The translations under genes were made by a program, and so were the position numbers. Of a DNA stretch of 64,000 nt, positions 4,464 to 51,803 are shown in pieces. The number at the start of each line of letters is the position of its first letter. Position 1 is the first letter of the stretch. A model generated the notes under the pieces. It was not told where the DNA came from and searched no databases. It saw nothing but the letters and a program-made list of their open reading frames with translations. Source of the stretch: Ectobius pallidus (lineage: Eukaryota; Arthropoda; Insecta; Blattodea; Ectobiidae); assembly GCA_964059195.1 (NCBI GenBank), contig CAXKWD010000001.1, forward strand, positions 155,112,532 through 155,176,531, in the 5' to 3' direction.

Positions 4464-4563
4464 TACGAGGGCCGTCCACAAAGTAAGTTTTCCTAGGGCC
4501 GTTTACAAAAAAAAAAAAAAAAAAATTTATGGAAATATTTATTGAAACAGATATAGCAAGTGT

Positions 4564-4790
4564 TCAGCTATTTTTCAACATATTCGCTACACAGGAATTG
4601 AGATATTTGTCATACCGTGGGACCAACTTTTGAACACTTGTGTCGCAGAAGTCTTCCGCCTGGCATTTAAACCACTGTGTGACAATCATCTTCGGTTCTC
4701 TGTCTTTTATTGATGTGTAGGAAAAGATGGAAATCACTGAGAGCGAGGTCCGGGCTGAATGCTGAAACATATTTTAGCCGAACTTCTGCA
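4564..4790 (-). pseudogene. Mariner transposase C-terminal remnant (left arm, copy 1)
   Basis: This is the minus-strand reading of the left palindrome arm. Residues of the mariner C-terminus are visible: the WFK segment, then a VQKLVPRYDKY segment matching the family pattern (K-x-L-V-x-R-W-D-K-C). The tryptophan and cysteine of that pattern are replaced here (RYDKY). The region that would hold the last catalytic aspartate (the family's SPDLAPSD block) is eroded near the centre. Only about 70 codons stay open, the upstream two thirds of the gene are absent, and it cannot encode an active transposase. Confidence 0.7.
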
Positions 4791-5060
4791 GGAGACTTGC
4801 AGAGAGGTGTGGAAGCCTCCACCCTACAGCTCGGACCGCACACCCAGAGATTTTATATCTTTTCCTACTCGTCAAGAAAAATGACAGGGAATGGTAGAGA
4901 CTGATAGAGAAACGGAGGAGGTTATCATACATTAGTTCAAATCCCAGGCGGCAGACTTCTATGGCACATGTATTCATAATTTTGTCCCACGTTATGACAA
5001 ATATCTCAATTCCGGTGGCAAATATGTTTAAAAATAGCTGAACACTTGCTGTATCTGTTA
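4791..5060 (+). pseudogene. Mariner transposase C-terminal remnant (right arm, copy 1)
   Basis: The plus-strand partner of the left arm. It carries the eroded remains of the block around the last catalytic aspartate (4805-4860) and then the C-terminal coding segment: a VPRYDKYLNSGG-like reading near 4985-5020, followed by a stop. Frames are interrupted several times. It is collinear with the right arm of the second element at 50.8-51.1 kb. Confidence 0.6.
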
Positions 5061-5138
5061 CAATAAATGTTTACATTAAATTGTGTTTTGTATCCATTAA
5101 TGGCATGTGGGAAATTTACTTTATGGACGGGCCTCGTA

Positions 5139-6425: not shown

Positions 6426-7682
6426 AAATATGCACTTTTGTTTTTTTTAATTCCATTATATGCAAGATATATTATATTGTACGCTACATTATGCATTATA
6501 ATATGTTACACTAGAAGCCTAAACTTTTAATTGGGTAGAGGAAGTTATGTATATCACATCATTTTTGTTTGTTCGCGATTATTTTCGCAAAACCCTTCAT
6601 TATTTCAAATAAGAATCAGGTAAACTGATGTAAGAAAGTGCCAGAATGCTTTTGTTTAATCAGTGATAATTGCAACTATGCAGAAAATAACTTATTTTTT
6701 TAATCAATGTCCGAGTTAAGCTATTCATTAAGCAGGGCTTACGGAAGAACAAAGGTCTAGTTTGATAATCATATGTGAAGGAATATATGGGTAGTGTTAT
6801 TTGTCATAGCTAACTGTATTGCAGACAGACATTTTCCCATCCCGCACACAATCTCAAAGTACCATACTTGCACTTAATAAGAATTTTATAGAACTGTGAA
6901 TGTGAAAATGATAACATAAATATTGACACTGAGAGTTCACTCTTACATGAAGCTTTTTTTAAGGGGAAACAGAATTGGTTTTTGGACGAAAATTATGATT
7001 TTATTTTTATTGTTGTATTTTAATCTCTGGAGTATCCTCTTTAAAATTATGTAACACACATAATGTACTTTAATTTTTTCCATGCTATTTTTTATTTTAT
7101 GAGAAGATCCAGACTATGGACCACGTTCCATAACTGTTCCATACTAACTGTTCCATAAATTGGAACTATTATGTAGAAAATACTAACATTTCAAAGAAAT
7201 GAGGTCATTACATTTGAAAGGTAAGTCGAATACTCATTACTTGTAAACAATGCTTTCAACACGGGAAAATAAAATATCTGAGAGACTGCAATGTGACGCA
7301 GCTGGGAATCCCATTTCGGAAATAATTTCCCAGAAGCTTTCCTTAAAGGATTTCAAGTATATAAGAAGAGATTTATGTGCTATTAGAGCATTTTTAAAAG
7401 TCCAATAAAATTGGTGTCAGAAGAGGAGATCTCGCTGTAAAGAAACACGGTCTGGACATATATCTCCGATTCTTTTCCGAACTCATTGAACCGGCAATGA
7501 AATATGTTGCTGCAAAGTTTCGAGTGGAATGCGAAGGTGCAAGTGTTCCTAGCATTCCAACGTGCGATTGCATCGATTGGAATAAGCATTAAAAGTACTC
7601 GGCTTCAGACTATGTAGTCTACATTTCAATATCTACATAACTTAACACAAGAAAACAGGGTGAAAATGTAATTTCCAATTAA
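6426..7682. other. No recognisable gene or repeat
   Basis: A+T-rich DNA. A short local repeat of TGTTCCATA occurs at 7126-7157. A minus-strand frame at 7383-7589 has no recognisable motif. Confidence 0.4.
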
Positions 7683-8231
7683 GATCAACATCTTAAATGG
7701 TCTCACCATGTTAACTACATCTGTAATAGACTACGCAGAACAATTCATAAATTTGTCATTTTACGCCACTGTATGCCCATTACTGTTTTACGTTCCGTTT
7801 ATCTAGCACTTTTCCAGTCCATTATTCAATATGGCATTCTCGCCTGGGGAGGATTAGCGAAAACTACCCTTAAGCCCCTCTGCCTTTTACAAAAAAGAAT
7901 AATAAAAATCTGTCTAAGAAAACACATTGATTACCCAACTAGCCTAATATTTTCGGAATTTAATGTTTTAAGTTTGGACCAAATTTACAAATTTTCTATA
8001 TTAAAATATTTTCACAAACATCGTATAAAATACTCTTCCAGTGAACATATCTACAAAACTAGACGAAATACTAATTTACTCCTATTAGAACCCAAATGTC
8101 TCACATCGGCAGGATTAAAGCATAGCATTAATTTTGGACCGCGCTTCTATAACTCAATTATCAGAAAATATCCTGATCTCTCAGCATACTCCACTGTTAA
8201 ATTTAATAGATATGTAAAGAATTTTTTGTAA
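7683..8231 (+). pseudogene. Non-LTR retrotransposon RT, C-terminal part
   Basis: An open frame of 183 codons begins directly after an in-frame stop at 7680-7682 and has no 5' part; the first ATG is at 7773. The translation starts with DQHLKWSHHVNYIC (the segment that follows the RT domain), then LALFQSIIQYGILAWGG, the conserved motif after the reverse-transcriptase thumb in CR1/Jockey/L2-type LINEs, then LLQKRIIKICL. It ends at TAA, where the LINE 3'UTR begins. The RT catalytic box and endonuclease are absent, which is the usual result of 5' truncation at insertion. The frame is intact to its natural stop, so the insertion is fairly young. It could be called an ORF, but with no RT core it has no expected activity. 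Confidence 0.85.
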
Positions 8232-8626
8232 TTTTTTAGCTTTTAAGTAATTTTTGTTTCACTCCTTTTATGTATTTACGTTTTTATGTTTAATGTTTTT
8301 TAACTTTCTTTTTTTTAGTTAAGCACATTATACACTCTATTTCTTTGTCTCTCCTCTTTCTTCACTTTGATATTTTTGAAACGGCACCCGAGCACGAGCA
8401 GTCTTGCTCATTCGGGTGTATTACTAAATGTAATACTTCTTGTGAAGATATAGCCTATATTTCTTTTCCTCTTTTTAAATAGTTGTAGTTAATTTTGAAT
8501 TTTGAAAATTGTTTTATTTTACTTGTATAAATATGTATTTGTACTTGTATTTGTTTTTGCAATTCTATGTAATAATGTAATATTGTAATGTAATAAATAA
8601 TAAATAAATAATAAATAAATAAATAA
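8232..8626 (+). mobile_element. LINE 3'UTR with hairpin and (AAAT)n tail
   Basis: The 3'UTR of the truncated LINE starting at 7683. A hairpin lies at 8387-8420 (CCCGAGCA ... GCTCATTCGGG), and the element ends in an AATA/AAAT tandem tail at about 8591-8626. The same arrangement (GAGC...GCTC hairpin, then an AAAT tail) recurs in the LINE ends near 31.4 kb and 45.2 kb. I could not define a target duplication. Confidence 0.75.
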
Positions 8627-8879
8627 GTGAATTCCGAGAGCGAAATCAAAGTTTTATGTACAATATCTGTGTTATATTAGTTTTCCACCTATGCTCTATT
8701 ACAACATATTAAATATACAACCTAATCTAAAAGATATCTAATATAATATTACATTACACGTGACATAAGTTACTAGTCTAGAATATTAACTCACAGACAT
8801 ACAATAAATTCACTGTGAATCACTGTTACAATGTCTAAAAGCTGTTAAAAAGGTGACCTTAAAATCCATCAAAATGTAT

Positions 8880-9091
8880 GTCCCATAACGTGGATGTTTT
8901 CTTTATTTTCAAGACGCGTTTTGGCGTTAATTTGCCATCTTCAGGTAATTTTTCATCGTGTATGGAGATAATGTATCATGTCGTATGTTGCATGATCATT
9001 CTTGTCTTGCCAGACATACGCATAGGACATATACTTTTCCCCTATTTAACATTTTTAAAACAGTTTAAGGTTGTGTATATATACGGGTGTG

Positions 9092-9143
<52 letters not shown>

Positions 9144-9252
9144 AATTGAGCATAGTTGAAAACCTATTTTAACAGACACATATATATATACACACACACA
9201 CACACACGCCAAAACGCGTCGTGAAAATGAAGAAAACAACCACGTTTTAGCA
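8880..9252. mobile_element. Inverted-repeat element with hammerhead-like core
   Basis: The left arm (about 8886-8925) contains AACGTGGATGTTTTCTTTAT and AAGACGCGTTTTGGCG. The right arm (about 9208-9250) is its inverted copy with few changes. Read on the minus strand, the left arm gives CTGAAGA at 8944-8938, a GGC...GCC stem, AAAA in place of GAAA, then AACGCG and later CACGTT, which can pair. This is the layout of a hammerhead ribozyme core with one key base changed. The right arm keeps only the part from GCC onward, the rest being replaced by (AT)n and (CA)n. Penelope-like retroelements carry hammerhead motifs in terminal repeats that can be inverted; assignment to that group is inference. 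Confidence 0.5.
9095..9208. repeat. (AT)n and (AC)n microsatellites
   Basis: An AT array at about 9096-9138 and an AC array at about 9190-9207 lie between the arms of the inverted-repeat element. The open frames crossing them (runs of YIYIYI) are artefacts of the repeat. Confidence 0.9.
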
Positions 9253-9259
9253 TAGGACA

Positions 9260-10900
9260 TATATATATATTACATCATTTTGAAATTTGCAATTGCATTT
9301 CATGGCCGAAAACAACATTACTTCATACTATAGTAACTACGGTATGGGAAAAAAGTGAACTATAAGTATTATCATGTTCACCAGTTCACAACTAAGTGCA
9401 AAGAAGTGTAGCACGTTGGCCTATGTGTTTAATTTACAATATAAAGATTCCTCATTTTTATATTCATAAAATTCTACTTGGTGGATTTTATTCCACAATT
9501 ACGTAATATTATACAGTGATACTGCGTATGAACATATTTAACTGAAAACGTAAATCGTTAATGGGGTCATTAAAATTTCATCAGTAATTACTAACATTCC
9601 CAGGAGGAATCTCTGAGCGATCCCGACCTGTCTGCCCCAACCTACCTCTTCAACTCATTTAACATTATCTGAATATAATTACAGGCGTGCAAAATGTACG
9701 TAGTCGCTGAATAATTTATTTGCTTGAATTAAAAACACACACCTAGCAGTTTTGAAGACCATGCAATATAATAGTGGATAACGTAGAAATGACACACCTG
9801 AAGAAAAAATAGATTCATGTTTAATTTCATTCCTTGTTCGGTCATCACAAAGTTTAAAATAGATTAGAAAATAGGTGTTCATTTATATCTAACGTCTTGT
9901 ATGTTTTGTTGTTGTAATTATTATTAAATGGGCGTTGTGTACTGCTTTTTAGGCCTGTTAGTATCATCGACGGTGTAACGAAGTTTTGTCACGCAAAATT
10001 TGTTTTATATGGCCGTATTTACGTACTCATTAATGCCGTCGACCTGTTCTTGGTGTCTTAACTAATTAACTAACTCACTGACAGGCGCGGTTGGTTGAAG
10101 CACTATGCTACAAACCAGAAGAAACTCTTTACACTCTTTAAACTCTATCCTTCCAGTTGTGCCTAGTTTTTCTTATGGGCTTTTATCTTCTTTTACCTTT
10201 CTTCTTATGTTTTCCTATGCTATCTTTTCCATTCGAACCACGAGATCTGCCCATCTAAATATCGCGTAACTATTGGAGAATGAAGTGGATGGCATAAAAG
10301 TCGAGTTTCGTCCTTTGTCTTACAACTCGCTTAGGGTACAATATCTTTGTTCTCGACACGCCTACTACAGTATATAATGCATTGAGCCTATAATGGCATT
10401 TACTAAGATTTGAGTATGTGCATCTTTATAAAACGAGCAAAGCTAGTTTCATAATTTTCGTACGAGTATCTTAATTACCATTAGGCCTATAGACAAGTTC
10501 CATACGCCTGTTTTTGTTGGACTATTCCCCTCATACCAATATTGACCAATACCGTTTAGCAATTCCTCGGATATAGACTAATCACGGCCGTTTATCTTAT
10601 AATATTCTGGTAGGAATAGCGAGGATGGCATTTTATCGGGTAGAACCGTCTGCTCGTTACTGGACACGAAAGCATCAGTGTGCAGTGATTAATACGTCAT
10701 ATGTTGCCATTAAACAGCATGAAAACAGATTATTTTATACAACATAACTTGTTTGGAAATTAAAATAATATAAATGTACAGCGATTAAAAGCGCAATTTC
10801 AATTCGGTGCAAGCCAGTTCGTGTGCTTTTATTCTGTTCTGCTGTTAGCTTACCTGAATGAAGTTAACTATGTCTTATGTGCAAAATTGGTGTACCGATC
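9260..10900. other. No recognisable gene or repeat
   Basis: A+T-rich DNA with no element ends or convincing coding frames. A TAGGCCTA octamer is at 10482-10489. Confidence 0.35.
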
Positions 10901-10904
10901 ACAG

Positions 10905-10964
10905 CATGGACATGGTAACTCGAATCGTAGCACTGGTTGCAACATGGACATGGTAACTCGAATC
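10905..10964. repeat. Local direct duplication
   Basis: A 22-bp sequence starting CATGGACATGGTAACTCG occurs at 10905-10926 and again, exactly, at 10943-10964, 38 bp apart. This is probably a simple tandem duplication. Confidence 0.8.
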
Positions 10965-11390
10965 AATTCATGAATGGCTGATTCATGGTATGCCGTGATC
11001 TCGTAGCAGTTAATTTTGTTTTTATACAACAAAGCACGAAAGTAATTATGATTTCTATAATCCGTTACATTTTAATTCATGGAATAGTCTGAATGAATAC
11101 AACTCGAATTGACGAGTTTCATCAGATAAATTCGCTCCTGCTGCTCAGTCGCGAATCTATCGATAAACTCGTCAACTCTCGTGGAATTACCTATGATAAT
11201 AATGAAATGTTTCAGTTTTGGGAATTTAGATTCACTCAAACAAACTGCGACGGCTGCCCTTGGAAATCAAATTTTCCCGTAGTTCTTGCCTTCTGCGACA
11301 GAAGTTAGCTCATGGCATCTAGTGAAGTAGAAGCTTCTTCTCGCCAAGCAAGCGCTCCTCGAGAAACAAGACGAAGACGGAAATTAAACA
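10965..11390. other. No recognisable gene
   Basis: A 71-codon plus-strand frame at 11093-11308 has no motif I recognise. Nothing else is visible. Confidence 0.3.
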
Positions 11391-11394
11391 CCAT

Positions 11395-11794
11395 GTGAAG
11401 GGCAAGCCCCATTGGGCAAACCCTCCACCCAGCCCGAGCAGGGTTTTAGAGAGGTTTCCCCTGCTCACAGGCAAATGCCGGGCTGGACCAAAATCCCCTC
11501 ACACAATAACACAGCACAACAACTTAGATCCTAACATAAACACACGCAGCACACTACCCAACACAGCACTAAAAGCCGATCAGCGCAAGGCAAACACTAA
11601 CTCAAAATAAAGACACTTGTACAAGCACACAGCCCAAAACGACATAACCTCAATCATCCCACATGGATGCACACAAGGGCACTATAGGAACACACAGCAC
11701 AAATGGTCACCAAAATTTGGTTTGACCGGAGTTTTTGGCTTCATTGCTAGGCACTCCGGGGGAAAGGGTGGGCACACAAAAAAAAAAAAAAAAA
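11395..11794 (+). mobile_element. SINE-like insert with poly(A) tail
   Basis: A G+C-rich, A-rich block inside A+T-rich flanks, ending in an uninterrupted run of 17 or more A at about 11778-11794. It contains GAGAGGTTTCCCCTGCTCAC followed by GGCAAATGCCGGGCTGG; a worn version of the same core occurs in the SINE remnant at 33.7-33.9 kb. The middle is rich in CACAGCAC/ACACAGC words. No A or B box is visible at the left end, so it may be 5' truncated. No target duplication was found. Confidence 0.4.
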
Positions 11795-11799
11795 TGTTC

Positions 11800-13714
11800 A
11801 TTTTCTTAAAATCAGCGGATTTTGACAACATGAAATAAATTCCATTTAGTATAATAATTAAAACTAACATGAACAGGATTAATTTCACTTTAAATACAGG
11901 TTTATATTACGCAGTTTCAGTTTCAACTCTCAAGGTTTCAAGATCCTGAAAATCTGTTTACAAATGAATATCATTATGACACCGTTACGTCACCATAATA
12001 AGCCTAATATGGTAAGAACGAACAAAAATACCTATTATGCTTCTCATGTGTTAATGGCTAAGTTCCACATCAGTAAACGACTAGTAGGAGTGTGACTGTT
12101 AAATAATCATTAATTTCAAATCGGTAATCAGCCGACTATATACCTTGACTGTATACCTTTATTTTAAAAAAAGTAAGATAAAATCGAGCTAAGGAAATTA
12201 AATGTAATCACGCTGTGAAAATTCTTGTCGTTAACCGATAGTCCTGCTATTTGGCATCTTATTATACATAATATTAAAAAATGGAAAAATAATTGGACAC
12301 CATACCTAGGTTAAAATGGAACGCGATATCTCGTATTACATTTTTCATATAATGATCGCGTTTCAGGTTTCATTGTACAGCGGTTGAGGACTATAATTTC
12401 GAACTATAAAACTACTGCGGTACTTACTTCCATCGTTATCGACGTTTAAACTAAAAGGGAGCCGACATGAACTGTAGAACACGGATATCAAAGTAGGCCG
12501 GATTTTCTCTTAAACCCTTGCCCTCCTTATCATATTCCATCTACGATTCTAGGTTAACAAAATTTAAAGTTGCCACACTTGCTGCTTCAAAAAATTATTT
12601 GGGAAAATAACCTGAATAATTGATTTAAATCATCTTTATAGACCCACACAAAGAGGAAACAAAATTAATTATAAATGTGTTGATTGCCATGCCTTATTCT
12701 ATTTAAGATCGAAATGAAAGGCAAGCATTGTGTGGTGGTGACGACTGTAACCTACTGTCAATAATGTGGCAGTAGTTTTTGGTGATTCTTCCTCAACAGT
12801 GCATCTGATTTGTAAATTTTTATATTAACAAATATTGTATTAGATTTCCTTAATAACTATGAAAATTGGGTATCGATCGGTTAAGTGGGATAAATGTAAT
12901 TGACTTTCAAATAGTTGAAGTTTTAAGGATGAATAATACGTGATGAGTCAAAGAAAGTAAAAAAAGATTAGCCTACTCATACGTAAAAGCGTTATATAAT
13001 GTTCACAAATTTTCAGTACTTTCTACGTACATGAAGTCATTGCCTATAAGTTATTGAAATAAACCAGACGAGCAAAGCATGTTTTCTACCGTTTTATAAG
13101 GTTGTCATACGAAGATACAAATGGGATGAAGTTATAAGATCAAGAAATAGTTTCAAGTATTCCTCTGAAATGTAGAATAGCCTATGTTCTTTGGCCTTTA
13201 AATGGTATGTGAAAACTATGTTTCATGAATGGACAGTCACAAATTAATCAAGTTCCATATTTCACTTTGAGATCTATCCAAGACGTGTCACAAAAGTGTT
13301 AATTTTTATTTATCTTATTTTAGCGACTACTTTACTTGAGGTATTTTTTTAAATTGAGAATGTATTTATTTTCTTTATGCTTACATAATTTAGTGACATT
13401 TTTATTTTATACGTTTTTCCGAGGACATTCTCTTATACAGAAGAACTAAAGTTACTACAGTGAATAAGGATCGTAAAGAATATACACAGATTCGACATTT
13501 TTGATACAGCAGTGTTTGGTTTCAACGACCGAAGTTTCAAGTATTCCTACACGATCAAGTGTTTCTACTTTCCCTTTATTTTTTCCAATGATACAACAAA
13601 AATTGCAGCAGATGGAAAAGGTGAAAAATGAGAACCATTAATCATGTGGATGACACTAAGCGAATAAGATAGCTAATAAATTAAGTTAGAAATTCAAACG
13701 TTTCCGAGTTTTAA
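11800..13714. other. No recognisable gene or repeat
   Basis: Nearly 2 kb of A+T-rich DNA in which I see no inverted ends, pol III boxes, tandem arrays or convincing frames. Confidence 0.4.
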
Positions 13715-14684
13715 GTGATTAATAGAGCCCGGATTTCCATGCAAATGCATGTTTTTATATACTTTGGTTTCACTTCTCAAACTTTGTAGTTACACATTAC
13801 ATGACTTATGGATTCCAAATAAACATATTTTTTCCGTGCATGTTTGCATATTTAGGCCTTTTTATGGCAAAATTCATGCATAATGCATGTTTTGGATTTT
13901 TTGGGCTTAATGTAGCATATTCAGACATTTTTAAATGCATATAAACCCTCATTTTCTGGTTTTAGTACATAATATCAAGTTACCATGCATAATTGTGCAT
14001 ATTATGAATATGCCTCCCTAATATCTAGGCTTTTCAAAGAAACGTAAAAATGTTGTATTGCATTACCATTGTTATATTTTGATTGACTTGGCAACAGAGT
14101 CTGCCACCTGCATAAATTTGAGAGTTCACCCTAAATAAACAGAAATATAATACACAAGGCTACAAAAGAAAATGCCGACTCGCCGACCCCCACCACCTTC
14201 CATTGAAAGAAAACTGCTAAACAGAATGTTCACTGCTTGAATATGTCAGTCACTAGCCATTGTTGAAGACTTGGAATACTTTAAGAAGGTACTTAGTTCA
14301 AACCCTGATCTTAAACTTCTGAAAACGTGAAAGACGTATTATGTGGAGAAAATGTAAAAGACATGGAATTTGATCTCACCCTCAGTCAAATTTCTTCCAC
14401 TAAGTAGGCCTATGCACCTGTTACTTCTTGTGAAGTAGATAGATACTTTTCTGTGTTCAAGAATGTCCTAACTGATAAACAGACGAGTTTAAGTGAGGAG
14501 AATTGGGAATAACTCGTTGTTGTATATTGTTTTAAGATAAATTGAAATATATTGCAGTACAGTGCGGATTTTTGATAGTGCATGTTTCGCCCTTCATTGT
14601 GCATATTTGGAGATATGATAGTGCATGAATGCATGCATGTTTTTAAGTTTGATAGTGCATGAAAATCCGGGCTTTAGTGATTAA
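13715..14684 (+). mobile_element. Internally deleted hAT element with 8-bp target duplication
   Basis: The element (13723-14676, 954 bp) is bounded by exact 8-bp duplications GTGATTAA at 13715-13722 and 14677-14684. Terminal inverted repeats are TAGAGCCCGGATTTCCATGC (left) and TAAAGCCCGGATTTTCATGC (right, reverse complement). Words built on ATGCAT / AGTGCATG recur near both ends, as in hAT subterminal binding regions. Inside, only the last part of a transposase gene remains (14411-14545). The 8-bp duplication, end sequence and the dimerisation-domain remnant together make the hAT assignment firm. Confidence 0.92.
14235..14545 (+). pseudogene. hAT transposase C-terminal (dimerisation) remnant
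   Basis: In the frame starting at 14411 the translation reads APVTSCEVDRYFSVFKNVL, then a segment with TSLSEEN. This is the hAT C-terminal dimerisation motif (S-x-x-x-E-R-x-F-S), with the usual ER replaced by DR. An in-frame TAA at 14510-14512 interrupts it, after which LVVVYCFKIN continues to TGA at 14543-14545; that is the normal end of these proteins. Upstream, 14255-14330 reads SLAIVEDLEYFKKVL in another frame. The BED finger and catalytic DDE residues are absent. The gene is dead; the element would depend on a related transposase. Confidence 0.85.
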
Positions 14685-15519
14685 TGTTTTGAAAAGCAAT
14701 AATGCCAAAGGTTCGGAAAAACATTCACTGACAAAACTGACATACTAACCATAAGCAAGATGTTCATGCAAATAAGTATAACATTTTCATACAGAGGGGT
14801 TAGGAGTAATACATTTTGTCTTGAACTGGAGAAACAGAAGGAGAGGGCTGTATTTATTGGCAGTAAACCTGGTGGCTGTACATCCTGTGCTGGAGTGGGG
14901 GTGGATCGCACACACCCCCAGGGTGTAATTGTTCCTGACCCCAGCATTTCATTATCACAAGCTGCATGCTCTTTAGCACCCCAACAACTAACAAGCCACA
15001 CGCGTATATAACAAGAAAATACTTGCGATCTGGAGAATGTTCTTATAAGCTATGTTTCTTTTATATCTGTATATTTGTTTAACTTCTTTATCACTTTCCT
15101 CTAATGTGCTGTTGAATTAGATCAGGAAACTTAATTTTGAATCGTTATTAACAAAAAATTCGATAAGTATATAAAAAATCTCATTTCATAGGTTATAAAT
15201 TACTTCACTCTGTAGGCTAATTAGTATATATTTAAAGAACCATTTAATTAGTTATACCTCAGGATTTCAAAATTGTTCTTCCCACTTTGCATTTTTTCCT
15301 TCTCTTTATTACTTTTATTCTAAATACTGGATTTTAAGTTAGTTATATTTTATTTTATGTATTTGTATTTAATTGTGTATTCTGTAATATAAATAACCGA
15401 ACTGAACCCGAATAAGATCACGTGCTTACTTAGGTGATTATTTGATGTACAGTATCCCTCTTGTGTTTTTTAAAAATTATTTACCTTATTTTGCTACTTT
15501 TTTTCCTGTTTTCCTTATA
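14685..15519. other. No recognisable element; two overlapping chance frames
   Basis: Two antiparallel frames overlap here (14681-15001 minus, 14760-15011 plus). Neither has a recognisable motif. A G+C-richer patch at 14860-14960 contains GGGGGTGGATCGCACACACC and may be a repeat scrap. Confidence 0.3.
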
Positions 15520-15653
15520 ACACAAACACCTATGCCCAAGGCGGGACAAGCACCTAAAGGCACATTCACCACGGCTCCAAGGGAACCTTAGTTACCGCGC
15601 TAAGGATACCGGCTGATTTATACAATAAATAAAATAAATAAATAAATAAACAT
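15520..15653 (+). mobile_element. Probable LINE 3' end with (AAAT)n tail
   Basis: A G+C-rich stretch (AAGGCGGGACAAGCACC, ACCGCGCTAAGGATACCGG) runs into an AATA/AAAT tandem tail at about 15624-15652. G+C-rich body plus tail resembles the 3' end of a LINE. No coding sequence is left, so the family is unknown. Confidence 0.4.
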
Positions 15654-15684
15654 AATCAGTTGCCTTATCGCTTGGAAAGAGCAT

Positions 15685-16306
15685 CCATGAAGAGGGTGTA
15701 TGTAATCTGCGCCACGGTTGACACCGAATTTGAAATAGAATAAGAATGATATATGTAAACTGCGGCACACATATGTAAAATGCGGCACACACATAAGTAA
15801 ACTGCGTCACGAAGAACAATATATAAAAAACGAAATATCCCGTTTTGATTTTATTAAGAAGAAGTCACATGAGAACGAAGTGCTCATGCAAAAAATTAGG
15901 GTAGTGTTTTTAACAATTTTATACGTGACGAAGCGTTCATGCAAAAGAAATTAGGTTATTGTTTTTAACATTTTTTTTTAAAATGACAAAGCCACTAAGC
16001 CTAACATTTTAACTATGCAATTTCATAGCCAGTCCTGAGTCTGGAGAGGTGGGAAGGAAAATGTTGGTTCGTTAGTATGACGGTGACGCCATTTAAATGT
16101 CGGGGGCGCAGTTTACATATGTCGGTGGCGCAGTTTACATATGTCGGTGGCGCAGTTTACATATGTCGGTGGCGCAGTTTACATATGTCGGTGGCGCAGT
16201 TTACATATGTAGGCGGCACAGTTTACATATGTCGGCGACGCAGTTTACATCGTGTAGGTTGGGGGAAAAGGTAGAAGTGGCGCAGATTACCTTTTCCCCA
16301 TGAAGA
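15685..16306. mobile_element. Foldback-like element with minisatellite inverted ends
   Basis: The element (15694-16297, 604 bp) is flanked by exact 9-bp duplications CCATGAAGA at 15685-15693 and 16298-16306. Its ends are inverted: GGGTGTATGTAATCTGCGCC on the left, and GTAATCTGCGCCAC in reverse complement on the right. Inside each end the same unit (GTAAACTGCGCCAC on the minus strand) is repeated: about four degenerate copies on the left (15700-15815) and seven 22-bp tandem copies on the right (16099-16252), in opposite orientation. The middle holds two direct copies of a 55-60 bp segment (near 15880 and 15930). Tandem-repeat inverted ends with a 9-bp duplication match the Drosophila Foldback (FB) architecture and the MuDR-like duplication length; the family link is inference. 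Confidence 0.8.
16099..16252 (+). repeat. 22-bp minisatellite, seven units
   Basis: Seven head-to-tail units of GTCGGTGGCGCAGTTTACAT plus AT. Units 2-5 are identical; units 1, 6 and 7 carry one to three changes. The frames that cross it (repeated FTYVGG-type peptides) are artefacts. It forms the inner part of the right inverted end of the surrounding element. Confidence 0.95.
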
Positions 16307-16842
16307 CTATCTTTGTTGTCAATGTTTATATATCGATATGGAAGGGTTGCCGCGACTTCCGCCAGATTTACATGTAAACAGTCGGCAAGCAGAAATAAAA
16401 CCGCGTACAATAATTCATAATAAAGTACATAATTACTAAAAAATAAAATAACGATTGAAGAGAAAATATTTTTCACAAAATATAATCCTTGTCACATCAA
16501 TTCACCATTGCAACGGAAATAATAGTAGTAGACTAGTAACTCTCTGAACGCTTTCTGAATTTGCAAATGCTATGAGAAAACACGACAATTTCTCCTTATA
16601 GTGAGACTGACTTGCATAAATATGTAATCAGTTTCAAATATAAACTGTTGTATTTTTTTATTATGTCTGCTCATGCGGATATGCGTTCGTAACACTGCTT
16701 ACAGAAGACGTTCTCTATGTAAAATTCCAGACTTCATTTCTTGAAATGGAATTACTTTGACAACGTGACTATTGTAATATGCCACACTTCTCCGTTCGTC
16801 ACGGCCATCTGTGAATGCAATTTAATCTGAAACATCAAAAGC
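16307..16842. other. No recognisable gene or repeat
   Basis: A+T-rich DNA; nothing seen. Confidence 0.4.
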
Positions 16843-17100
16843 CTACTTTCTTTTGTTTTGCCGCTGTTCTTGGCACTTTGTAATTTCATTTTTAAGGAGC
16901 CTATTCACTTGGCTGCACAGCATTTTCATCTTCACTGATTCGAAATCAAGTTTCTTTTCCCGATTACAGTCACGTGCTTTCTGCATCCCTAATCCGATGG
17001 AAGAAAGTTTGCAGTTTAGGGGTCGCGAAATTTCATAATATGGTTCCTTTTCTTGCAGCAGTATTTTCTTGACTGTGATAACATGGCACTTAATAAGCAA
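16843..17100 (-). other. Unassigned 85-codon open frame
   Basis: A minus-strand frame with an unusually lysine-rich, possibly coiled-coil C-terminal half (KKLDFESVKMKMLCSQVNRL, then EITKCQEQRQNKRK). It starts just left of the hAT-like MITE at 17111. I recognise no family. It could be a host exon, a transposon scrap or chance, and the evidence for coding is weak. Confidence 0.2.
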
Positions 17101-17102
17101 GA

Positions 17103-17373
17103 GTAGTTTGCAGTGGCGTAACGAGAGGGGGTTTGAACCCCCTCCCCCATTGATTAAAAAAAGGAAAATTGTACAATTTTTTTAAGTCTGCTTATAAAGT
17201 ACTTAATACGAGTATAAAGCGTGGGAAGCTTAAAACTCGTTATTGTTCATCTTAATTTTTTTTAATTTTTCGGGGGAGGGCCCCCAAACCCCCTCTCCCT
17301 GGGGGGTATTCCATACCCCCCAGATGTTATAACCCCCCCATATGGTCAGCCTGGTTACGCCTATGGTAGTTTG
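17103..17373. mobile_element. 255-bp hAT-like MITE with 8-bp target duplication
   Basis: Exact 8-bp duplications GTAGTTTG lie at 17103-17110 and 17366-17373. The element between them (17111-17365) has inverted ends CAGTGGCGTAAC and CATAGGCGTAAC (right end, reverse complement). The interior is short and non-coding, with G-rich/C-rich runs near each end (GAGGGGGTTTGAACCCCCTC and CCCCCAAACCCCCTCTCC) that can form local hairpins. The CAG start, 8-bp duplication and size fit a non-autonomous hAT; a P-like origin is possible since P elements also duplicate 8 bp. Confidence 0.88.
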
Positions 17374-17464
17374 GTGTTAAAGTATTGTAATGGAAAGAAT
17401 TTCGATTCATTATAGGCCAGTGTGACATCTGCGTGGTTAGTGTTGCTGGCTATGGAACCGCATG

Positions 17465-17668
17465 CACGGATTCTCCTTGAATTTTTCTGAGGTAAGAAGT
17501 TCTGGAACGGGGTGCACTCAGCCTCGTGATTTAAAATGAGGATCTACTTGAATAAGAAGTGCCGGCATGCTGACCACATGCCTCCAATCTTTGCTTCCTG
17601 CATTTGGTAGATCACGCAGCGGTCGGACGGTAGGCCTAGTGTCTTCAGGGATGCAGCGCCACGGAAGA
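17465..17668 (+). repeat. Interspersed repeat B, copy 1
   Basis: It shares an ordered set of words with 35100-35345 (plus) and 59810-60062 (minus): AAGTTCTGGAACGGGGT, CTACTTGA, CATGCTGACCACATG, GCGGTCGGACGGTAGGCC and TTCAGGGATGCAGCGCCAC. The family looks like a short non-coding retroposon, but no pol III boxes are visible. One TAGGCCTA octamer is part of the repeat (17631-17638). Confidence 0.65.
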
Positions 17669-20575: not shown

Positions 20576-21189
20576 CGTCTGGAAGCGTTTTTGTGGAATG
20601 AAATAATAATAATAATAAAAACTTTCTTATCAAATGATACATGCTTATCAAAAATTGCTTATAAAAAAACTTATCAATCATTTTATTGGAAGCGTTCAAT
20701 AATTTTATTAAGTATCGATACAAAAAAGTCACATGTTTTATGCTTCGATGCTTAAGGTCTAACGCTTGTAAATATGTAAGATGTCACAGGCAAAAAAAAT
20801 AACCATAGCATTAAATAATGGAGGAAAACTTATTTTGATATGCTGTGCCATTCTGAAGTACCTGGTCGTTATAATATTCCGGCTAACAGGGGGATTATCG
20901 AGCGTTATAGGCTTCATTAGGGTTTACATTTGTGACGTCATACCATAATCCTATAACTTAAATAGCCAATTATAATAATTCATGACAACCACCTCATAAT
21001 TTCTCTAGTACACGACAGCATGTGGACACAATGAGGAATTATTGTTTCATAAAGTGACATTTAAACTAAACCCTACGAGCTGCAATGCTGTATTATAGGC
21101 CTACATATTTCAACGTTGTTGCGTGGTAGGATATGGAAATAGGATGACAAAATTTCCCAGTGTGAACCAGTTGTTTAGATATCCCAGTA
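20576..21189. other. No recognisable gene or repeat
   Basis: A+T-rich DNA; a TAGGCCTA octamer is at 21096. Nothing else seen. Confidence 0.35.
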
Positions 21190-21208
21190 TGCAGAGAGAG
21201 AAAGAGGT

Positions 21209-21252
<44 letters not shown>

Positions 21253-21695
21253 AGATATATAGAGGTAGAGATATAGAGATAGATAGAGATACAGATACAG
21301 ATAAAAGAGATAGAAATAGAGAGGTAGAGATACAGATAAGAGAGATAGAAATAGAGAGAAAGAGGTAGAGGTAGAGGTAGAGATAGAGAGATAGATGTAG
21401 AGGTAGGGGTAGAGAGATAGACATAGAGAAATATAGAGATAGACAGAAAAAGAAATAGCGATAAAGATATAGACAGAGAGATAGATATAGAGATAGATAG
21501 AGAGATAGAGAGAGATTGAGGGAGAGATATGGATAGAGATAGAGAGAGATATAGAGGTAGAGATATAGAGATAGAGAGATAGAAATAGAGAGATAGAGAT
21601 AGAGATAGATAGAGATAAAGATAGAGACAGATAGAGATAGAAATAGAGATATATAGATAGAGGGACACAGAGATAGAGATAGAGACGAATAATGA
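21190..21695. repeat. 500-bp purine tract, (AG)n / (AGAGAT)n
   Basis: About 500 bases on the plus strand consist almost only of A, G and interspersed T in AGAGAT / AGATAG units, with a pure AG core near 21215-21247. Three long minus-strand frames of alternating Leu/Ser/Tyr/Ile are produced by the repeat and are not genes. Confidence 0.95.
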
Positions 21696-22648
21696 ATTCT
21701 AACAAGAATAGGAGATAAATCAATACAAGTAATTTTATTTAGGCCTACTGTCAGTATGTCAGTTCCGGATACTCAACTGATCGTGCTATTTCAAGAGCCT
21801 TTTACAGACACTCTCTTTATCAAAGCATGTTGTATTACATTTCGGAGACAAACGTAATATTTAATAATTATACAAATATGAAAACCGAACTAATATTTCG
21901 GCGTATGAAAAAGTATAATAAGAGTTGCTGACACAGTCGTCTCACTGCAGCATAACAGAAAAGCACGTCCGTAGAAACCGGTGTCGGCAAATGCACTACA
22001 ATATCATACTACCACGAAACTTGTTTAAATGCAGGAAGGAAAACTTCGTTACAAGTAGTTTAATAGCAGTTTGTCGCAAAAGAAATAAATACATTTAATG
22101 GAATAAAAGCAGTAAGACAAACGACAATCTGATGAACAAAGAATGAACACATTTTGTCCTTCAGTTATTTATATTAAACCGTAGACATTTTTATAACGTA
22201 GACCTATGAAAAGAATTCTCAAAGCAAATGTTATGAATTGATTTTTTGTTGTTGAAAAAATATCAATAATGTTATATTGAAACACTCGCAAGGACGATTA
22301 TTATTCAATTATTTTTTCTTAAAATCATAATTAATATTGAAGTTGCCAACACCAGTTGTAATGATATCCTCATGTGACGTACAGTCGAAAAAGTAAAACA
22401 TGAAAACGCTTTAGGTTCTCATACCAACTAACGAGGGCCTTGTAAGGGTGAAAATATTAGTATTGTTCCAATTTATAGTTAAGTAGCAGGTAAGTAACAG
22501 GTATGATAAAAAAAACTAGGCCTATGCGAAACTACAGAAAGAAAATATTCAGGAACGAACTAATCACAAAGATGCTTAGTCCCAGATCATTGCATAATAT
22601 AACTTCAGTTTTTTCATATTTTGGTATGATAAATTATACAACTTCCTT

Positions 22649-50216: not shown

Positions 50217-50497
50217 TGGTATTTAAGAGCGAAAAAAATTCGGCACATCTTTGTTCGTGAGGGAAGTAAAGCTGTTTTTCCTTGTTGTATAAACAAAGAA
50301 GGTTTCTGGGCAACATTTCCAGTCTTATGCAACTTGCCTATAATTGTAATTAAGACACCCTTATGGAAATTATACTCGCCGCTCTAATTTGATTAGCAAC
50401 ACAGCAATGTCTTAATAATGGGTTAGGTATTACAACCTAGTTATACAATGTACGAATGTACGAGGCGCGTCCATAAAGTAAGTTTCCCTGGAACTGT

Positions 50498-50800
50498 TTA
50501 CAGAAACAAAACACAATTACATGGCCATATATATATTCCAACAGATACAGCAAGTGTTAAGTTATTTTTCAACATATCGCCGCCGGAACTGAAGCATTTG
50601 TCATTCTGAGCAACCAACTTTTGAACACCTGTGTCGCAGAAGTCTGTCCCCAGGTGTTTGAACCACTGTGTGACAAAGATCTCTGCCTCTCTGTCATTCT
50701 CTGTCATTTCTTTAAGTGTAGAAAAGCTGGAAATCCCTAGGAGCGAAGTCCGGGCTGTAGGATGGATGTTTAAACACCTCCCAGCCGAACTTCTGCAGTA
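50498..50800 (-). pseudogene. Mariner transposase C-terminal remnant (left arm, copy 2)
   Basis: On the minus strand from the centre: LQKFGWEVFKHPSYSPDF (around 50800-50735), containing the block with the last catalytic aspartate of DD34D transposases (usual form HPPYSPDLAPSD), then a frame shift and REAEIFVTQWFKHLGTDF and GVQKLVAQNDKCFSSGGD. The end GGNYVEK-stop, expected for mariner, is present one frame over. No N-terminal or central part. Confidence 0.8.
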
Positions 50801-50811
50801 GAGTTGCTAGG

Positions 50812-51040
50812 AGGTGTTTAAACATCCACCCTATAGCTCGGACCTCGCTCCCAATGATTTCCATCTTTTCCTACACCTAAGAAATGACATAGAATGACAG
50901 AGAGGCGGAGATGTTTGTCACACAGTGGTTCAAATACCTGGTGGAAAACTACTACGACACACGTGTTCAAAAGTTGGTTCCACAGTATGACAAATATTTC
51001 AGTTCCAGTGGCAATATGTTTAATAATAGCTGAATATTAG
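50812..51040 (+). pseudogene. Mariner transposase C-terminal remnant (right arm, copy 2)
   Basis: The plus-strand reading FKHPPYSSDLAPNDFHLFLH (about 50822-50875) is the clearest copy of the third catalytic aspartate block in either palindrome. The frame is then broken, with later pieces (VQKLVPQYDKY-like reading near 50960-51000, then the gene end). The right half of the palindrome mirrors the left arm. Confidence 0.8.
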
Positions 51041-51107
51041 CTGAGTCTGTTGCAGAAATATTTCCTTGAAATTGTGTTTTGTTTCTGTAAACGGCCCCAG
51101 GGAACCT

Positions 51108-51783
51108 TACGAGGGTCATTCAATAATTAAAGAGACAAATTGGTCTAGGGAAAAGACGGTTGGTAGTATAAGTTTGATACATTTAGGATTTTAAGTTGGC
51201 ATCACGGGGACGAGTTCTAATCAGCTGATGGATCAACATTGCTCTGTTTGTAACCTCAAAATTAGGTTTAACGATGTCGGGTCTTCTTGAAAATTCCACA
51301 TTGGTTGAATAACGTTCTGTGATTCGTTTCTTGATTGCTGAAGGTGAAAAACCAGCTAATATATACTCTAGAATGACTAAAGTGTATGGTGAAAGTTATA
51401 TGAATCGTGGAAATTTTTACAAGTGGGTAGAACAGTTCAAAAGTGGTCGAGAATCAGTGACTGACGAACACCGTTCTGGCCGGCCTGTTGAAGTTGAAAC
51501 TTCCTCACGTGAAACTCGAATTGTTTGGTTCACTGAAGGAGGCTTTACGTGGGAAGAAGTTCCAGGATAACGAGGATGTCAAGAAATTTGTGGGAAATTG
51601 GCTCCGACACCAAGACAAATAAGTTCTTTACAGCTGGTATAAAAAAGCTAGTAACCCGTTGGGACAAGTGCATAATTGTTGATGGGGATTATGTTGAAAA
51701 GTAGGAAAAGTCTTGATTTGTAAAAATAAACGTTTTTCTCCCCCAGGTCAGTTTTTCTCTTTAATTATTGAATGGCCCTCATA
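51108..51783 (+). mobile_element. Internally deleted mariner nested in the foldback
   Basis: Target TA is duplicated at 51108-51109 and 51782-51783. The element (51110-51781, 672 bp) has inverted ends CGAGGGTCATTCAATAATTA and TGAGGGCCATTCAATAATTA (right, reverse complement). Joining the host sequence across it restores a continuous terminal repeat of the surrounding palindromic element, so the insertion is exact. It is a different mariner lineage from its host (different ends and C-terminus). About half of the gene is missing. Confidence 0.95.
51274..51704 (+). pseudogene. Mariner transposase, N- and C-terminal parts joined by a deletion
   Basis: It begins ATG at 51274 (MSGLLENSTLVE), where an in-frame TAA at 51310 stops it, then continues SVIRFLIAEGEKPANIYSRM and the second helix-turn-helix with YKWVEQFKSGRESVTDEHR and SGRP. 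These form the paired-type DNA-binding domain of mariner. At about 51500-51520 it jumps, with a frame change, to LFGSLKEALRGKKFQDNEDV, the segment following the last catalytic aspartate, and, after another frame change, FFTAGIKKLVTRWDKC ... GDYVEK and stop at 51702-51704. The deletion removes all three catalytic aspartates. No activity is expected, though a DNA-binding fragment could in principle be made. Confidence 0.9.
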
Positions 51784-51803
51784 CTTTATGGATGCGCCTC
51801 GTA

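Follow-up and report, generated by a model that had tools for sequence, protein, structure and literature searches.

Doubled mariner 3' ends form a large palindromic MITE family in the Ectobius pallidus genome

Two elements in a 64,000-nucleotide stretch of the genome of the blattodean insect Ectobius pallidus (contig CAXKWD010000001.1, positions 155,112,532 to 155,176,531 of the forward strand; hereafter the window) belong to a large, old, high-copy and non-autonomous family of miniature inverted-repeat transposable elements (MITEs), in which two copies of the 3' end of one mariner are joined as a palindrome. Here we describe the two window copies, the family across the searched assembly (2.12 Gb, 410 contigs), rarer palindromes with other junctions, and a possible route by which the family arose and spread.

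Results

The features of the two window copies are as follows. ITR denotes an inverted terminal repeat, and the basis of each assignment is given in brackets.

4464..4800, minus strand: copy 1 (subfamily A1), long arm and loop, inverted mariner 3' end with outer ITR and TA (inverted repeats, arm split)
4801..5138, plus strand: copy 1, short arm, forward mariner 3' end terminating in ITR and TA (inverted repeats, arm split)
50459..50807, minus strand: copy 2 (subfamily A2), long arm and loop, minus strand reading ATLLQKFGWEVFKHPSYSPDFAPRDFQLF... (Mos1 alignment)
50808..51107, plus strand: copy 2, short arm as far as a later insert (inverted repeats, alignment)
51108..51781, plus strand: a different mariner, internally deleted and with its own ITRs, inserted later at a TA target within the outer repeat of copy 2 (inverted repeat, edges)
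51782..51803, plus strand: copy 2, outer end of the short arm, remaining ITR and TA (inverted repeat I5)

Copy 1 runs from TACGAGGGCC to GGGCCTCGTA (4464-5138, 675 bp). Identity between its arms is 77.1% (315 aligned columns), and the whole copy is 89.9% identical to the A1 consensus. Copy 2 (50459-51803) measures 671 bp once the insert at 51108-51781 is removed, and its arms, with the outer piece 51782-51803 included, are 82.3% identical over 322 columns. Both copies have TA at both outer ends, start with TACGAGG and finish with CCTCGTA. An ITR of ~28 bp lies at each end, the outer ITR of copy 2 being interrupted by the insert; in repeat I5, 50459-50480 pairs with 51782-51803 at 95%. The centre is GCCGAACTTCTGCAG-GAGACTTGC in copy 1 and GCCGAACTTCTGCAG-TAGAGTTGC in copy 2. 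In the layout of both copies the centre was assigned to the left arm, which holds ~24 nt more of the gene; these form a loop and make the palindrome asymmetric. A first-pass annotation, made from the letters of the window alone, had seen the same architecture in both copies (inverted mariner 3' ends, terminal repeats and outer TA), as well as near-equal lengths and a common centre. Inverted repeats and alignment confirmed the former, and sequence comparison the latter. The insert in copy 2 is bounded by inverted repeat I4 (51108-51150 / 51741-51783) with the edges CCTTACGAGGGTCATT and TGGCCCTCATACTTT, and, read by eye, carries an apparent N-terminal transposase remnant.

Concerning the identity of the arms, the minus strand of copy 2 at the centre reads GCA ACT CTA CTG CAG AAG TTC GGC TGG GAG GTG (ATLLQKFGWEV) and continues into FKHPSYSPDFAPRDFQLF. 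The translated left arm, ATLLQKFGWEVFKHPSYSPDFAPRDFQLF, matches Mos1 transposase chains with E values of 3e-5 to 6e-5, window positions 50715-50807 (minus strand) aligning with residues 263-288 of chain 3hos_A. This stretch would include D284, the third catalytic Asp. The right arm of the consensus continues in another frame as IQKLVPRYDKCLNSGGEYVEK up to a stop codon, followed by the 3' untranslated region (UTR) and the ITR. The arm thus contains the last catalytic motif, stop codon, 3' UTR and terminal repeat of a mariner, and each arm is a mariner 3' end. In the A1 and A2 consensus, the sequence internal to each ITR matched the 3' UTR of three relatives described below (L128-L130), and gave no match to the 5' UTR of L129 and L130. 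An alternative reading of the centre, AELLQ on the plus strand, proved incorrect; a parent pattern built from it found nothing, and the minus-strand ASLLQKFGW replaces it. Another parent pattern, with a wrong upstream spacing, gave no match in the genome.

Transposase homology in the C-terminal catalytic region, together with the TA and ITR ends, places the elements in Tc1/mariner. We take the ITR start CGAGG to resemble that of the mariner irritans-like subfamily. The same start is tabulated for other mariner subfamilies (PMC4678618). One decayed copy with a different junction, L121, reads DNARPYTALQTASLLQKLSWKIFKHPPYSPDLAPSN, in which a hand count gives 34 residues between D and the third position, occupied by N. 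Membership in Foldback or Galileo was ruled out by the TA ends and the mariner coding remnant; Galileo has a P-superfamily transposase and 7-8 bp target duplications (PMC4168063). Copies are short (~675-694 bp), bounded by ITRs, numerous and non-coding, with no intact reading frame in copy 2 or in the consensus. These are the features of a MITE, whose movement in trans we infer. Those of a mariner MITE with one end doubled, namely an inverted copy of that end and a single breakpoint, were found in the main family only.

A DNA search of the assembly with copy 1 gave 7501 first-look candidates, and all 40 matches scored (copy 1 included) aligned in both orientations. A 25-nt pattern of the A2 junction, spanning one side of the centre, had 2045 matches in the genome at one mismatch or less, against 0 for a reversed-pattern control. 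By a simple binomial estimate, this corresponds to ~7,500-17,500 A2 copies if these are 10-14% off the consensus; the divergence measured in nine A2 copies was 11.8%. We examined 123 loci for pairs of arms. An inverted pair of near-complete arms was found at 59, giving 60 pairs in total, and the remaining 64 were truncated, interrupted or picked for other features. The inner spacing of the arms was exactly 29 nt in 41 of the 60 pairs and 28-31 nt in 56, one of which, L116, nevertheless has a different junction by sequence. Outside this range were copy 1 itself (L001, 40 nt), L007 (33), L024 (35) and L106 (39). The first three share the same centre by sequence despite their spacing, and L106 has a deletion adjoining the centre.

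At a distance cut of 22%, 46 copies fell into A1 (37 copies, mean identity to the consensus 91.6%, with copy 1) and A2 (nine copies, 88.2%, with copy 2), which have a common junction. The same copies gave groups of 37, 6 and 3 at 20% and a single group at 25%. The sampling was biased, since likeness to copy 1 determined the choice of L001-L040 and the A2 junction that of L041-L090; the share of palindromic versus solitary ends therefore has no unbiased figure. A search with the 3' end (1573 candidates, 40 scored, 40 matches) returned one match per candidate even for the two-armed L068, and was uninformative on this point.

Some loci showed further rearrangements. L091-L120 include solitary or rearranged half-palindromes broken a few bases from the centre, a set selected by pattern, in which the centre may be fragile. 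The 79 matches of the solitary-half pattern give no frequency, owing to this selection. The proposal that TA before GCAAGTC in solitary halves reflects cutting at the centre was dropped, as the search pattern can only retrieve copies with a break or mutation a few bases from that point. At L048 (762-1867) and L062 (670-1845), several hundred bases separate the halves at the centre, and the element coordinates overlap by 8 and 13 nt, possibly through insertion with target duplication. L003 contains two family palindromes (229-917 and 1501-2158) ~0.6 kb apart.

Among 45 copies with both ends located, TA was present on the left in 39, on the right in 40 and on both sides in 34. Long flanks on both sides were common to only one pair, L002 and L005; three other flank matches were 61-72 bp long or lay inside one locus. 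The first-pass annotation had named many palindromic copies with one junction as support for a single palindrome, and had proposed that the element spread, presumably by way of its outer terminal repeats. With the exception of L116, the pairs at 28-31 nt agree with the former, and the TA ends, dispersed loci and non-shared flanks support the latter. We infer that the main family arose once and then transposed as a MITE moved in trans.

On the other hand, not all 3'-3' palindromes of this mariner share this junction. In type B (L105, L107, L116 and L122, of which L105 and L107 are incomplete), GGCTGTAG is joined to GCTCTATGGACAGCAAGTC with single-base variants between copies. The long arm reaches 12 nt further up the gene (A-L-W-T preceding A-S-L-L) and the short arm begins later. 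Further junctions occur in L121 and L123, whose long arms extend to the DNARPHTA region, and in the 3'-3' elements of type C (L125 and L127) a long stretch of central coding sequence acts as spacer. These palindromes differ from the main family in the breakpoints on both arms. Both arms of L116, L121, L122 and L123 keep a mariner coding stretch (AAATTCCTGTCTGGTCAGCATCAG-like), in place of which the A arms have GACAGAGAAT units. A loose automatic sorting of junctions (120 loci: A 85, other 31, B 6 matches) does not serve as a count; visual inspection confirmed L105, L107 and L116 alone among its six B matches.

An arm tree was built with 50 arms taken from 25 loci (10 A1 and 11 A2 among the paired loci, and L116, L121, L122 and L123); L105, L107, L125 and L127 were left out. 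The eight arms of L116, L121, L122 and L123 formed one clade (100/100). The A1 short arms, ten in number, made up a clade (100/99), and their ten long-arm counterparts grouped separately at a weak 90/90, below the starring threshold; separate groups of short and long arms fit one origin followed by amplification. In three of the 11 A2 copies, L072, L068 and L044, the two arms of the same copy were sisters (100/99, 99/93 and 98/90), which suggests arm-to-arm gene conversion. The arms of L050 and L075 paired weakly, L055 was unresolved in the tree, and the remaining five A2 copies were unpaired. L044 was placed closer to A1 than the other A2 copies.

As the other junctions differ on both arms and the arms of four loci form a clade of their own, these results suggest that the 3' end of mariner was doubled repeatedly, with at least two origins. 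The earlier claim that the palindrome arose once thus holds for the main family with its one junction, and not for the rarer 3'-3' palindromes. A competing account, which we regard as possible though somewhat improbable, is that one founder palindrome gave rise to all junction types through later deletions at the centre and arm-to-arm conversion, with no repeated origin. Conversion is apparently real in the three A2 copies, and the variable breakpoints of Rpmar17 in Rhodnius were explained by its authors with a progenitor and later deletions (PMC4678618). However, type B differs from A on both sides of the junction, its long arm containing a larger part of the gene and its short arm a smaller one, and the coding sequence kept in both arms of L116, L121, L122 and L123 is absent from both A arms. 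With short and long arms both differing, deletions from a single founder would not suffice, as its short arm would also have to be extended. In its fullest form, repeated origin would mean several separate palindromisations of the 3' end of the same mariner (A; B; L121; L123; and C in L125 and L127), with no 5'-5' element among those found, spreading while mariner itself nearly vanished. We consider this full form doubtful, and rather unlikely.

Taking the upstream region of L125 as a query for central coding sequence, absent from the main palindrome, we found 39 matches at 38 candidate places genome-wide, all of which were scored. These include L125 itself, the palindrome L127 and sister-lineage copies, so true parents are fewer. 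Three mariner relatives were recovered: L129, a full-length copy of 1,299 bp bounded on both sides by TA and ITRs; L130, internally deleted at 1,037 bp; and L128, truncated at the 5' side. They are 80-84% identical to the A1 long, A2 long and A2 short arms and 78-81% to the A1 short arm, and represent a sister lineage. Either end of the A1 or A2 consensus can be aligned with the 3' ends of these relatives, the alignment extending through the 3' UTR, and the 5' ends of L129 and L130 resemble the family ends over the ITR and diverge just inside it. The outer ~55 nt of the A1 consensus short arm are 92-100% identical to the sister-lineage 3' end (two windows), compared with 78-88% to the family's own long arm. 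The outer end of the A1 short arm was apparently replaced by a sister-lineage-like end. A search for PF01359 gave 5222 candidates, of which 150 were scored, and found many mariners without singling out the parent.

No 5'-5' element was present among 12 matches to the 5' end of L129 (10 candidate places, all scored, very common words skipped); as the query came from the sister lineage, the search may have missed some 5' ends belonging to the true parent. In the same search, two 5' ends of sister mariners abut with their ITRs facing at C3:135315860/135315876 (G000:C3:135315574-135315946).

Elsewhere in the window, a long low-complexity tract at ~21093-21772 (minus strand) contains overlapping Ser/Leu-rich open frames.

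Discussion

We consider it probable that the family is explained by a strand-switch origin, mobilisation in trans, and an advantage of a 3'-3' MITE with two preferred ends. In the course of repairing a mariner gap, DNA synthesis would have jumped from the growing strand's template to the opposite strand within the transposase gene, probably at the 4-nt match CAGC. Such a switch would drop the 5' half and leave a 3'-3' palindrome with a loop of ~24 nt. The proposed microhomology lies between GGACAGCAAG of the long arms with other junctions and CCTCCCAGCCGAA; CAGC stands within (G)GACAGCAAG in the long-arm continuation retained by the other types, and CCTCCCAGCCGAA opens the short arm. Because copies are flanked by TA and dispersed, we propose that a TA-specific mariner transposase, supplied in trans, then mobilised the element through its two outer 3' terminal repeats, over thousands of moves. 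In the least certain step, two preferred 3' ends, the 3' repeat being taken as the preferred end here, would make a better transposase substrate, and the MITE may have out-transposed its parent. Mos1 with two right inverted repeats had 26 times the activity of the natural pair in vitro, and the Mboumar-9 transposase favours the left end (PMC4505599). The proposal is based on the fact that both transposases tested work better with the preferred repeat at both ends. Subsequent changes are visible in the sequence: the family split into A1 and A2, arms of some A2 copies apparently converted one another, an end was apparently replaced in A1, and copies decayed to about 8-12% divergence.

Several points weigh against this explanation. 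The junction now reads CCTCCCT in most A1 and CCTCCTA in most A2 copies, and the CCTCCCA of the microhomology is kept in few (L016, L047 and L070). No whole copy of the exact parent was recovered, L128-L130 being a sister lineage. The preferred-end step as proposed for this family draws on transposases of other mariners. In L129 and L130, which are single decayed relatives, several positions distinguish the 5' ITR from the 3' ITR, but not the same ones in each, so that these two give no consistent difference of the kind that this step requires. The left preference of Mboumar-9 and the doubling of 5' ends in Drosophila (see below) mean that there is no general rule for the 3' end. Finally, small size alone could account for the success of the element.

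Alternatively, the palindrome may have been retained because its hairpin RNA yields small interfering RNAs (siRNAs) that silence the parent mariner, a source of which the first-pass annotation had seen in the element. We regard this as very unlikely and found it unsupported. A2 consensus RNA could form uninterrupted helices of up to 63 bp (G-U pairs allowed), but the arms of the window copies have decayed to 77-82% identity, with longest helices of 30 and 28 bp. Promoter fragments tested in Tc1/mariner comprised the upstream terminal inverted repeat (TIR) and the stretch up to the open reading frame (PMC6446368). The palindrome does not have the mariner 5' UTR stretch where these promoters lie, and transcription of a hairpin would therefore need read-through. 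With central coding sequence in just 38 places, there is little mariner left to silence, and silencing alone does not account for thousands of copies. It is scarcely credible that two inverted pairs formed by chance and were then multiplied through segmental duplication or an error of assembly: L002 and L005 do have both flanks in common, but the 40 scored matches are distributed over contigs C1-C11, TA lies at both ends of 34 of 45 copies, and the other flank matches are short or intra-locus.

Doubling of one end is a known route to mariner MITEs, and the present family is another case, with a large copy number and several 3'-3' types. Topic-based literature searches, made without the species name, showed no description of this palindromic element among the titles and abstract openings listed. 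In Rhodnius prolixus, an inverted 3' part likewise took the place of the 5' part in Rpmar49 and Rpmar17, which produced long TIRs (221 and 57 bp) in elements of 970 and 922 bp that were then amplified to 13 and 140 independent copies (PMC4678618). Rpmar49 has a single progenitor structure and Rpmar17 few identical breakpoints (PMC4678618). Unlike these, the Ectobius element is wholly palindromic (~670-690 bp) and present in thousands of copies. In Drosophila, seven sublineages of MITEs derived from Dromar7, 11, 28 and 36 arose by doubling of one end and were amplified, also with unusually long TIRs (PMC4161770). In those described, the 5' part always replaces the 3' part, and the origin of the rearrangement was termed elusive (PMC4161770), whereas the 3' end is doubled in every palindrome read here. 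Rpmar17 and the rearranged Dromar lineages are of the same (drosophila) subfamily (PMC4678618, PMC4161770), and with opposite ends doubled within it, subfamily does not determine which end is doubled, an argument against a simple rule.

MADE1, or MiHsmar1, is also a palindromic mariner MITE, but of just 80 bp, with two 37-bp TIRs and 6 bp between them (PMC1784062). Unlike the present family, an element of this size would hold no transposase coding remnant. Muk and MuDR belong to a different superfamily from mariner. Muk is an inverted duplication of part of the autonomous transposon MuDR for which hairpin RNA is possible in principle, as here, but it is a silencing locus with siRNAs rather than a transposing family (PMC1784062).

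The family provides a large-scale case in which doubling of one end was a successful route to a MITE, with the breakpoint kept in many copies. By its own account, the model in PMC2642840 leaves the palindromy of most mariner MITEs unexplained. With several 3'-3' types, a clean junction, a possible microhomology and recoverable relatives, the questions of palindromy and of origin become testable (PMC2642840, PMC4161770). If true, repeated origins would represent a natural, repeated selection of two preferred ends, so far known from engineered Mos1 and Mboumar-9, and would answer why mariner MITEs tend towards palindromy.
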